Assembly (NCBI RefSeq): GCF_004363555.1
Contig: NZ_SNZJ01000007.1
Location: forward strand, 1-64,000
Length of the DNA stretch: 64,000 nucleotides
DNA from: Halomonas ventosae
GTDB taxonomy: Bacteria; Pseudomonadota; Gammaproteobacteria; Pseudomonadales; Halomonadaceae
Direction of reading: 5' to 3'
Shown here: positions 51,989 to 63,841 of the stretch, in pieces
How the letters are laid out: each line of letters starts with the position of its first letter
Position numbering within the stretch: the stretch's first letter is position 1
Made by a program: the position numbers and the translations under genes
The notes under the pieces: generated by a model
Told to the model about the DNA's origin: nothing
Database searches by the model: none
What the model saw: the letters and a program-made list of their open reading frames with translations, nothing else

Positions 51989-53302
<1,314 letters not shown>

Positions 53303-53330: not shown

Positions 53331-53352
53331 GCTGTAGGAGATCGCCTACAGC
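53331..53352 (+). terminator. Hairpin after eno
   Basis: GCTGTAGG (53331-53338) and CCTACAGC (53345-53352) form a perfect 8-bp stem with loop AGATCG. No T-tract follows. It may be a weak terminator or an RNA-processing site ahead of the stronger terminator at 53386. Confidence 0.5.
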
Positions 53353-53385
53353 GTGGCGAGGAGATCCGCCATTCCTGCGTCGGAC

Positions 53386-53416
53386 AGGCCCGACCCCTCA
53401 GGGGGCCGGGCCTTTT
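53386..53416 (+). terminator. Rho-independent terminator of eno
   Basis: AGGCCCGACCCC and GGGGGCCGGGCCT pair around a TCA loop with one mismatch, followed by TTTTCATTTCATT. This closes the pyrG-kdsA-eno run. Confidence 0.85.
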
Positions 53417-53529
53417 CATTTCATTGATTTTCAAGGGAGTTTGCTTTCCAGGCGGCAAGCGGGCTAGCCGGGATGGGCGTCGCCGGCGCGCGCCGGGCGG
53501 GGTTGTGCTGCACCGCGGCTATGCCACAC

Positions 53530-53709
53530 TGCACTCGGGATGTGGGAGAGCGGGGATGCTCTTCCGGCAGGATGCAACGGGATGCGACAAGTGATGCGCT
53601 CGGTGCGGCAGGAGGCCGTTCCCGGGCAGGGAAGGCATCACGGGAGTCGGGCGGAGGGAGCCGCCCGAGGACTGGCTGGGAGCGGGCGGCCTGCGGGCCG
53701 CCTTTTTTG
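53530..53709 (+). ncRNA. Putative CsrA/RsmA-sequestering small RNA (CsrB/RsmZ type)
   Basis: About 180 nt with roughly twelve GGA motifs (GGGATG, GGGAG, GGGGATG, AGGATG, AGGAG, AGGGAAGG and more), ending in a 7-bp GC stem (53685-53691 with 53696-53702) and T6. Several GGA motifs fall in hairpin loops: GGGAGAGC/GCTCTTCC with loop GGGGAT (53544-53565), CGGC/GCCG with loop AGGAG (near 53606-53618), and CGGGCGG/CCGCCCG with loop AGGGAG (53648-53667). This is the hallmark of RNAs that titrate CsrA. In Pseudomonas rsmZ also lies next to fdxA. The 5' end is a guess from a TATGCC -10-like element at 53520; no clear GacA site is visible. Confidence 0.8.
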
Positions 53710-53741
53710 CCGAGTGTTCTCCTTCTTCGCTCAGGGCAGAG

Positions 53742-53781
53742 ACGACGACGCCGGATGTCTTGCGACATCCGGCGTCGTCGT
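53742..53781 (-). terminator. Perfect 18-bp hairpin after fdxA
   Basis: ACGACGACGCCGGATGTC (53742-53759) and its exact complement (53764-53781) flank a TTGC tetraloop. It lies 20 bp past the fdxA stop on the minus strand and 32 bp past the small-RNA terminator on the plus strand, so it separates the two converging transcripts. Confidence 0.85.
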
Positions 53782-53801: not shown

Positions 53802-54125
53802 TCAGCGCTCGAGCAGCTCCAGCTTGCCCGGCTTGCCGTCCCACTCCTCGGCATCCTCCGGCGGGTCCTTCTTCTCGCTGATGTTGGGCCACACCTCGGC
53901 CAGCTCGGCGTTGATCTCGATGAACGCCTCCTGGCCATCCGGCAGCTCATCCTCCGAGAAGATCGCCTCGGCGGGACACTCCGGCTCGCACAGGGCGCAG
54001 TCGATGCACTCGTCGGGGTGGATCACCAGGAAGTTGGGGCCTTCGTAGAAGCAGTCCACCGGGCAGACCTCGACACAGTCGGTGTACTTGCACTTGATGC
54101 AGTTCTCGGTGACGACGAATGTCAT
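53802..54125 (-). CDS. fdxA: 7Fe ferredoxin FdxA
   Basis: FdxA carries one 3Fe-4S and one 4Fe-4S cluster and shuttles electrons in the cytoplasm. The ATG at 54125 ([24 protein letters not shown]) gives 107 residues. The first motif reads C-x2-C-x4-C-x3-CPVDCF and the second [16 protein letters not shown], as in 7Fe ferredoxins. The C-terminal extension ([13 protein letters not shown]...) is characteristic. In pseudomonads it also lies next to mutS and the rsmZ RNA. An AT-rich palindrome sits about 60 bp upstream. Confidence 0.96.
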
Positions 54126-54288: not shown

Positions 54289-56877
54289 TCACAGGGCCTC
54301 CTTCCAGCGGTAGAGCAACTCCAGGGCCTGGCGGGGCGACAGTGCGTCGGGATCCAGGCGGTCCAGCTGATCGACCAGCGGGTGGGGCGTGCTGGCAAAG
54401 AGGTCGGCCTGGCGGGGCGCCGCCGGCTGCTCTCCCTCGCGCGTCGCGGCGGCCGGCAGCCGGCTGCCCTGGTCGATCTCCTGCTGCTCCAGGCTGGCGA
54501 GCTTCTCCCGGGCGCGGGCGATCACCCCTTGGGGGACGCCGGCGAGCTGGGCCACCTGCAGGCCGTAGCTCTGGCTGGCCGGGCCGTCCTCCACGCGGTG
54601 CATGAAGACGATCCCGTCGCGGTGCTCCGCGGCCGTCAGGTGCACGTTGGCCACCCCCTCGGCCTGCTCGGCCAGCGCCGTCATCTCGAAGTAGTGGGTG
54701 GCGAACAGCGTGAAGGCGCGGGTGCGGGTCAGGTGCTCGGCGCTGGCCCAGGCCAGCGAGAGGCCGTCGAAGGTGCTGGTGCCGCGGCCGATCTCGTCCA
54801 TCAGCACCAGGCTGTGGTCGGTGGCGTTGTGCAGGATGCTGGCGGTCTCGGTCATTTCCACCATGAAGGTGGAGCGCCCGCCGGCCAGGTCGTCCGAGGA
54901 GCCGATGCGGGTGAAGATGCGATCCACCGGGCCGATGGCGGCCGCATCCGCCGGCACGAAGCTGCCGGTGTGGGCGAGCAGGGTGATCAGCGCGGCCTGG
55001 CGCATGTAGGTGGACTTGCCGCCCATGTTGGGGCCGGTGATGACCAGCATGCGGCGCGCGTCGTCCAGCACCAGGTCGTTGGGCACGAAGGGCGTCTCGG
55101 TGACCTGTTCGACCACCGGGTGGCGGCCGCCGCGGATGTCGATGCCCGGCGACTCGGGCAGTGACGGGCGCACGAACTCCAGGGCCCGGGCGCGCTCGGC
55201 GAAGGCGCACAGCACGTCGAGGGCCGCCAGTGCCCGCCCGGTGCCCTGCAGCGCGGCGAGCTCGGCGTTCAAGGTGTCGAGCAGGCCGTCGTAGAGCAGC
55301 TTCTCGCGGGCCAGGGCGCGGGACTTCGCCGAGAGCGCCTTGTCCTCGAACTCCTTGAGCTCGGGGATGATGAAGCGCTCGGCGTTCTTCAGGGTCTGGC
55401 GGCGCACGTAGTCCACCGGGGCGTCCCGGGCCTGGGCGCGAGGAATCTCGATGTAGTAGCCGTGGACCCGGTTGTAGCCCACCTTGAGGCCGGGCAGGCC
55501 GGTGCGCTCGCGCTCCCGGGTCTCCAGGCGGATCAGGTAGTCGCCGGCATGCTCGGCGAGGCCTCGGTGCTCGTCGAGCTCGGCGTCGAAGCCCTCGGCG
55601 ATCACGCCGCCGTCGCGGATCACCACCGGTGGGTTCTCCACCAGGGCGCGGGTCAGGGTGTCGGCCAGCGCCGGGAAGGGATGGATATGGTGGCGAAGCT
55701 CGTCCAGCGTGCTGCCCTCGCCGTAGGCCTCGAGGGCGGCCTGGAGGTCGGGCAGGGCGACCAGGGCGTCGCGTAGCCGCGCCAGGTCGCGCGGTCGTGC
55801 GCTATAGAGGGCCACGCGGGCCAGGATCCGCTCCACGTCGCCGATCGCCTTGAGCGACTCGCGCAGCGCCAAGAAGCCCTCGTCGTCGAGGAGCAGCGCC
55901 ACCGCCGCCTGGCGGCCGCCGACCTGGGCGCGGTCGCGCAGCGGGCGGTTGAGCCAGCGCTTGAGCAGCCGCGAGCCCATGGCCGTGGCGGTGGTGTCGA
56001 GCACGCTGGCCAGGGTGTTATCGGCGCTGCCGCCGAGGTTCACGTCGATCTCCAGGTTGCGACGGCTGGCCGCATCGATCACCACGGCGTCGTCGCGGCT
56101 CTCCACGCCGATGGCGGTGACATGGGGCAGGGCCGTGCGCTGGGTGTCCCGGGCATAGTCGACCAGCACCCCGGCGGCGGTGATCGCGGCCTCCAGATGG
56201 GCGCAGCCGAAGCCGCGCAGGTCCTGGACCTGGAACTGGTCGCAGAGGGTGCGGGTCGCGCTCTCGAGGTCGAACAGCCAGTCGCTCTGGCGACGCAGGC
56301 CGCGACGCCCATCCAGCGCGGCCGGAAGTGCCAGGCTTTCGGCGACCAGCAGTTCGGCGGGGTCGAGGCGCTGGAGTTCGGCGAGCATCTCGCCCTCGCC
56401 CTCGACCTCCAGCACGTTGAAGCGGCCGCTGGAGAGCTCCAGCCAGGCCAGCCCCCAGCGCTCGCCGAGCGGGGCCACGGCGACCAGCAGGTTGTCGCGG
56501 CGGGCATCGAGCAGCGCCTCGTCGTAGAGGGTGCCCGGGGTGACGATGCGCACCACGCGGCGCTCTACCGGTCCCTTGCTGGTGGCCGGGTCGCCGATCT
56601 GCTCGCAGATCGCCACCGACTCCCCGGCAGCCACCAGGCGGGCCAGGTACCCCTCGGCGCTGTGGTAGGGCACCCCGGCCATGGGAATCGGCTGGCCCGC
56701 GGACTGGCCGCGCTGGGTCAGGGTGATGTCGAGCAGGGCGGCGGCACGCCGGGCATCGTCGAAGAACAGTTCATAGAAGTCGCCCATGCGATAGAAGAGC
56801 AGCACGTCGGGGTGCTCGCGCTTGATCTTCAGGTACTGGCTCATCATGGGGGTATGCTGGGCACTGGCCTGTGACAT
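54289..56877 (-). CDS. mutS: DNA mismatch repair protein MutS
   Basis: MutS recognises mismatches. The 862-residue protein has the N-terminal mismatch-binding domain with [12 protein letters not shown] (the Phe-x-Glu motif), the connector and lever domains, then the ABC-type ATPase with Walker [10 protein letters not shown] near residue 615, [34 protein letters not shown] and a helix-turn-helix. The C-terminal end after residue 800 contains the tetramerisation segment. It is divergent from pncC. Confidence 0.97.
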
Positions 56878-63646: not shown

Positions 63647-63841
63647 ATGCTCATCCTGACCCGCCGCGTCGGCGAAACCCTGATGATCGGTGACGACATC
63701 ACCGTGACCGTCCTTGGCGTCAAGGGCAATCAGGTTCGCATCGGCGTCAACGCCCCCAAGGATGTCGCCGTGCATCGCGAGGAGATCTACCAGCGCATCC
63801 AGCGCGAGAAGGCCGATTCCGGCCTCGAGAGCGATGACTAG
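63647..63841 (+). CDS. csrA: Carbon storage regulator CsrA/RsmA
   Basis: CsrA is a dimeric RNA-binding protein that binds GGA motifs near ribosome sites and changes translation or mRNA stability. The 64-residue protein, [18 protein letters not shown] then [20 protein letters not shown] and [10 protein letters not shown], is full length. GAAGGAGA precedes the ATG; its AAGGA core could itself be a CsrA target, as in known autoregulation. The alaS-lysC-csrA-tRNA-Ser order is conserved in gammaproteobacteria. A probable antagonist RNA is encoded at 53530-53709. Confidence 0.98.

Follow-up and report, generated by a model that had tools for sequence, protein, structure and literature searches.

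The gap between eno and fdxA in Halomonas ventosae probably encodes a small RNA that titrates CsrA. We analyzed a 64,000-nt stretch of this genome (hereafter, the window), in which an earlier reading, made from the sequence only, had singled out positions 53530–53709 as a probable RNA of the CsrB/RsmZ type. Our analysis supports that assignment through conserved GGA motifs in loops and a conserved GacA site. It leads us to propose, with a probability of roughly 0.9, that this locus specifies a stand-alone, GacA-activated RNA of ~172 nt that sequesters CsrA and corresponds in position to Pseudomonas rsmZ, with eno standing in for rpoS. At the level of sequence, we found the expected motifs, a covarying structure, promoter and terminator signals, a GacA box, genes for CsrA, GacA, and GacS, and an association between the box and gacA across genomes; from these we infer transcription, binding by GacA and CsrA, and effects on targets. 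In the pathway we envision, a signal sensed by GacS would result in phosphorylation of GacA, which would then bind the box at 53333–53350 and turn on a sigma-70-type promoter at 53503–53530. The resulting transcript would fold into hairpins displaying GGA and bind several CsrA dimers, and retention of CsrA on the RNA would free the mRNAs that it represses.

RNAs that titrate CsrA or RsmA bear repeated GGA motifs in loops. About twelve such motifs had been claimed for the 180 nt of 53530–53709, and an exact count returned 12. When we counted GGA in all 127,642 segments of 180 nt on both strands of the window, the mean was 2.7 and the maximum 12, a value reached in one cluster only (53502–53717, plus strand), making this the densest on either strand. 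Part of this density is explained by the G-richness of the region (81 of 180 nt, or 45%); dinucleotide shuffles contained 7.3 GGA on average, and 16 of 2000 reached 12. The minimum-energy fold places the motifs at 53554, 53611, and 53657 in hairpin loops, in line with the earlier statement that at least three are displayed this way. Mean unpaired probability was at least 0.65 for 9 of the 12 GGA, with those at 53545, 53653, and 53679 mostly paired. The folding z-score of the region was -2.75, and one of 200 shuffles folded equally well.

We place the RNA at 53537–53708 on the plus strand, an extent based on the predicted promoter at its 5′ end, a match to our covariance model (R1), and covariation. 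The putative start, ~53537, thus falls 7 nt inside the 53530 given previously. The promoter we predict consists of a -35 element, TTGTGC (53503–53508, plus strand), inferred from sequence, followed after a 16-nt spacer by the -10 portion of an extended element, TGC-CACACT (53522–53530, plus strand), for which we drew on a 58-locus alignment and on printed upstream sequences. Most relatives carry CA[CG]AAT as the -10, and, judged by eye, TTGnGn occupies the -35 place in most of the printed loci. The predicted transcript begins with hairpin 1 (53544–53565, plus strand), which presents the GGA at 53554 in its loop, and continues with the small predicted hairpin 2 (GCA-GGA-UGC, 53567–53575, plus strand) and then single-stranded CGGGAUGC. 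Hairpin 3 (53591–53641, plus strand) is a long arm with an AGGAG apical loop (53610–53614) and GGGA in an internal loop (53629–53632), and hairpin 4 (GGGCGG-AGGGAG-CCGCCC, 53649–53666, plus strand) holds an ANGGA motif in its loop. The GC stem and T6 that had been noted at the end of the RNA correspond to an intrinsic terminator with an 8-bp stem (53684–53708, plus strand), of which 98% of cells are paired in 37 relatives.

Conservation of this structure was evaluated using loci from the genus. Alignment A1 contains 58 of 59 loci (L055, which is partly masked and near L053, was left out), and A2 contains 37 non-redundant rows, obtained by dropping the divergent loci L018, L023, L053, L056, and L059 together with rows more than 93% identical to one that was kept. 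We named the structure by hand and then counted it on A2. Both-sided changes occur in 24 of 40 base pairs, and 94.4% of cells are paired, compared with 33–49% when the structure is slid along the alignment; none of 500 shuffles was as good. These changes are distributed among hairpin 1 (7 of 8 pairs, 81.7% of cells paired), hairpin 3, which comprises helices 3 and 4 (11 of 15 pairs), and hairpin 4 (4 of 6 pairs, 99.5% of cells paired, loop GGA in 37/37 rows). RNAalifold run on A1 missed hairpin 1 because MAFFT leaves its stem unaligned. The paired bases of hairpin 2 are nearly invariant across the aligned rows, and GGA is found in this region at 53570 in all 37 rows and at 53580 in 35. More generally, GGA is the best-conserved trinucleotide of the RNA (84% versus 53% for other triplets), and for 10 of its 12 positions, 29 or more of the 37 rows carry the motif in the same columns. 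The exceptions are the motif at 53545, found in 16 rows, and that in the loop of hairpin 1 at 53554, found in the same columns in three rows and within 3 nt in 22. The expectation that loop GGA would be retained in relatives thus holds for most loops but not for that of hairpin 1. Aligned rows vary from 162 to 188 nt, with indels that keep no reading frame, which agrees with the initial judgment that the region has no supportable coding potential; signals for its own promoter and intrinsic terminator are present in both the sequence and the alignment.

The genes surrounding the RNA are positioned as previously described, with fdxA and mutS kept and eno in the place of rpoS. The gene for enolase, identified by translation, lies upstream (eno, 52010–53302, plus strand), and on the other side are an open reading frame for a convergent ferredoxin gene (fdxA, 53802–54125, minus strand) and mutS, also identified by translation (54289–56877, minus strand). 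The csrA gene, which encodes the presumed target, was said to be 10 kb away and is found as an open reading frame 9.9 kb downstream (63647–63841, plus strand); its product is the single match to the CsrA Pfam model in the genome (94.6 bits). The H. ventosae genome further encodes a GacA that is 51% identical to UvrY of E. coli, with its gene adjoining uvrC-pgsA as it does in that organism, and a BarA/GacS-like kinase that is 36% identical to BarA.

A DNA search for the RNA returned matches in 59 of 97 genomes, that of H. ventosae included, all of them within its genus and none in 36 other families. Within the genus, 59 of the 61 genomes searched matched, the misses being G001 and G046; R1 subsequently located the RNA of G001 at 73 bits. 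In H. ventosae, whose sequence is part of the model, R1 has one match (53536–53703, 157.7 bits). Across the family it matches 113 of 151 genomes, representing 17 of 24 genera. Applied to the order, it matches 11 of 12 genomes of the family and yields one weak hit among 281 others (G217, 24.4 bits). The genomic setting is equally stable: eno is upstream on the same strand in 101/101 RNA loci examined, fdxA is downstream on the opposite strand in each of 40 loci with more than 600 nt of flank, and mutS is found close to fdxA in 29 of the 30 genomes inspected. An R1 match is absent from 34 of the 131 family genomes that have GacA. Two genomes of genus g40 with GacA present (G189 and G443; loci L121 and L122) have eno-fdxA gaps of 228 and 155 nt without a GGA-rich RNA, and the sole R1 match of G443 is weak and located elsewhere.

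Control by GacA is suggested by a palindrome upstream of the RNA. The sequence TGTAGGAGATCGCCTACA at 53333–53350, with arms TGTAGG and CCTACA around AGATCG and no strand assigned, fits the GacA box consensus TGTAAGN6CTTACA, as given in an earlier study (PMC8523701). It lies 31 nt beyond the stop codon of eno and ends 187 nt before the predicted RNA start, and a terminator-like hairpin of eno (53387–53417, plus strand) separates it from the promoter. All 59 loci of the genus have a match of at least 9 of the 12 bases, that of L059 being poor, and in 55 of them the box is located 176–194 nt upstream of the -10. It forms an island of conservation amid unconserved flanks. The GacA site that the sequence-only reading had named as something to look for is present, and it is conserved in loci of the genus and the family alike. 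We also observed a second conserved motif, CGxxGA..T...C, at 53357–53369 and in relatives; it begins and ends 24–36 nt past the start of the box and is separate from it.

The box tracks the presence of gacA across the family. We scored 101 of the 113 R1-positive genomes, leaving aside eight of the H. ventosae genus, two of genus g121, and the weakest two (G443 and G463). Where the genome has GacA, a box matching at least 10 of 12 bases precedes the RNA at 81 of 85 loci, versus 1 of 16 where GacA is lacking; a reversed-pattern control gave 3/85 and 0/16. Requiring at least 11 bases, the numbers are 78 of 85 versus 1 of 16, with the control at 0 and 0. The counts for genomes with GacA take in G453, in which gacA is interrupted by two in-frame stops. 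All four loci that lack a box in range despite GacA belong to genus g121, whose RNA region is much longer; in G354, a box is seen further upstream. The only genome without GacA that has a box, G471, possesses GacS and has no uvrC match, so its gacA-uvrC region probably falls in an assembly gap.

Could the palindrome instead be an element of the eno 3′ end or a genomic repeat, leaving the RNA a CsrA sponge without GacA control? Its location just past the eno stop codon and upstream of the eno terminator-like hairpin would suit the former, and the occurrence of the same 18 letters at two other places in the genome would suit the latter. However, the box is missing from 15 of 16 RNA loci in genomes without GacA though eno is in place throughout, its spacing from the RNA is kept in the genus, and three of the six further boxes in the genome precede c-di-GMP enzyme genes, unlike a random repeat. 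We consider this explanation quite unlikely and favor a GacA box that activates the RNA.

The H. ventosae genome contains seven GacA-box places in all, one with arms that read like chance. We considered the other six as potential further Rsm RNAs; the 100–450 nt downstream of them hold 3–12 GGA per strand, versus 15 for the RNA at 53537, and none is an obvious second sponge, although another RNA with a different shape is conceivable. Three are situated ~70–190 nt before genes for GGDEF-domain proteins: C11:45426–45443 (L063), C20:3383–3400 (L064), and C20:19215–19232 (L065), followed by one GGDEF, one PAS-GGDEF-EAL, and one PAS-GGDEF gene. This arrangement hints that GacA may also feed into c-di-GMP signaling directly, in parallel with its action through the RNA.

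Next to known Csr and Rsm RNAs, the H. ventosae RNA is supported as a member of the CsrB/RsmZ type, yet it belongs recognizably to none of the Rfam sequence families. The sequence-only reading had pointed to the RsmY, RsmZ, and CsrB models as a check; none of these matched the RNA, even with the threshold relaxed to E 10, and none scored above cut-off in the window. Rfam matches at E 10 nearby fall on the neighboring inverted repeat, and we attribute them to chance. RF00166 (PrrB_RsmZ; gathering cut-off, 44 bits) has no match in the H. ventosae genome, exceeds its cut-off at L067 only among 10 loci, and does so in 12 of 293 genomes of the order, all in family f21; weaker matches to this model were set aside because control genomes matched at the same level.

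A close parallel is RsmZ of Pseudomonas, which lies on the same side of fdxA with mutS near, converges with fdxA, and features an upstream GacA box, many GGA motifs, and a terminator, but which has rpoS where eno stands in H. ventosae. The GacA-box upstream activating sequence of rsmZ is given as TGTAAGCATTCGCTTACT (PMC4353343). GGA counts differ, at 12 in ~172 nt here versus 10 in the best 180-nt segment of one RsmZ locus (L067). The mutS-fdxA-rsmZ-rpoS arrangement invoked for Pseudomonas stood at two of four RsmZ loci that we examined in Pseudomonas-family genomes, where fdxA, mutS, and rpoS are all within 1.5 kb; a third has rpoS only and the fourth none of the three. With filters off, R1 overlaps RsmZ on its strand in 12/12 loci and is the best match of the locus in 10 of them, at 7.0–19.7 bits. 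Position and type appear to agree between the two RNAs, and homology in sequence is suggestive only. CsrB and CsrC of E. coli share the presumed mechanism, namely GGA in loops, activation by BarA/UvrY, and sequestration of CsrA. CsrB differs in its length of 369 nt and its location between syd and yqcC, with no synteny in common; the best R1 match in 17 kb of K-12 lies within csrB and is not significant (10.4 bits, E 0.087). CsrB and CsrC of Marinomonas mediterranea are likewise described as having a GacA box and ANGGA motifs, but they occupy other loci and measure 456 and 655 bp (PMC8523701). Their levels drop in mutants of a BarA/UvrY-like pair, according to the same article (PMC8523701), and we predict a corresponding drop for the H. 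ventosae RNA in Gac mutants.

CsrR2 of Alcanivorax dieselolei is a CsrA-related RNA beside a ferredoxin gene; it has its own promoter, was found by RNA sequencing, and is likened by its authors to fdxA-rsmZ (PMC9788540). By description, it differs from our RNA in being antisense to its fdx gene and in adjoining hpt rather than eno (PMC9788540). Its authors propose a dual role with the antisense fdx gene (PMC9788540), and since the H. ventosae RNA also converges on fdxA, one might suppose that it base pairs with the mRNA of fdxA or with others, its GGA motifs resembling anti-Shine-Dalgarno sequences instead of serving as CsrA sites. Arguing against this, 93 nt separate the end of its terminator from the fdxA stop codon, another inverted repeat lies in this interval, the GGA motifs reside in loops of covarying stems, and loss of the box follows loss of GacA. 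We judge base pairing very unlikely as the primary function and possible as a second role of a CsrA-sponge RNA. The intervening repeat, at 53741–53781, is strong and is probably a terminator for fdxA. Finally, the G content, which yields 7 GGA from dinucleotides alone, and a 113-codon ATG frame starting inside 53530–53709 might suggest that this intergenic region is G-rich by chance and happens to hold a terminator, or that it is a short gene for a protein, but these negligible candidates are already contradicted by the covariation, family-wide conservation, and frame-breaking indels seen in our alignments.

The putative CsrA-titrating RNA seems to outlive its usual activator in several lineages, where gacA and the box are lost and the RNA, its stems, and, where tested, csrA are kept. 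GacA is missing from 15 RNA-positive genomes in addition to G471; ten of the 15 belong to g38, two each to g122 and g129, and one to g124. Three Kushneria records match the exact g38 pattern, with eno and fdxA flanking the RNA, and we saw no GacA box in them (best, 7–8 of 12 bases). The position before uvrC lacks gacA in 8/8 uvrC-containing genomes checked (G001, G097, G235, G357, G360, G362, G364, and G376), and it is from this neighborhood that we judged gacA absent in G001. A search at E 1e-90 did not find a GacS-like kinase in these lineages (Kushneria, g122, g124, g129, and G001), at a threshold that can miss divergent kinases, as two g40 genomes with GacA also returned no GacS. CsrA was present in 14/14 genomes tested, which include G001 and the RNA-positive, GacA-lacking G097, G376, G357, G362, and G471. 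Among 22 distinct rows from genomes without gacA, G001 included (alignment A3), 29 of 40 pairs have changed on both sides, a count that leans towards structure because these rows were aligned to the model. In each of two g122 genomes, devoid of GacA and box, the RNA is present as four tandem copies in the gap on the fdxA side (L129 of G376, 1997–2711; L190 of G388, 61–773; both minus strand). On a tree built from MutS and FdxA pieces, the distribution of GacA needs 5 changes (3–6 in bootstraps); the branches are weak and a single origin is compatible with them. We lean towards the view that in lineages without gacA the RNA is an orphan sponge answering to some other input, or else buffers CsrA constitutively. 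If so, these lineages offer a natural experiment in which the RNA is uncoupled from the Gac switch, and retention of the RNA after loss of gacA and the box makes sponge function without the Gac system testable.

In Halomonas anticariensis, GacS/GacA controls quorum sensing, exopolysaccharide, and biofilm, as summarized in a 2020 review whose table gives the RNA acting between GacA and CsrA as 'Unknown' (PMC7366521). The RNA beside fdxA, which Rfam does not detect, is an obvious candidate to fill this gap in the family. The titles and passages of open-licence literature that we searched contained no description of an eno-fdxA RNA in Halomonas or its relatives. A genome-wide prediction of CsrA-regulating RNAs from 2006 reportedly exists and may list relatives.

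We also noted several unusual GGA-rich regions beside fdxA. In a genome of genus g120 of the family (G353, locus L150), the fdxA side features two tandem GGA-rich stretches that R1 does not match; both have a GacA box of their own and a terminator-like end. The eno-fdxA gap of G354 (genus g121, locus L136) extends over 1172 nt and contains 39 GGA, with a box at a considerable distance upstream, and the R1 match is confined to a part near the fdxA end. In a genome from another family of the order (G088, locus L130), the region beside fdxA (300–1500) is rich in GGA over a very long span, with 45 GGA in 1201 nt. It includes near-identical CAAGGAAGCTAGAG repeats in succession, together with a sequence resembling the GacA box, and it is perhaps a giant sponge RNA.
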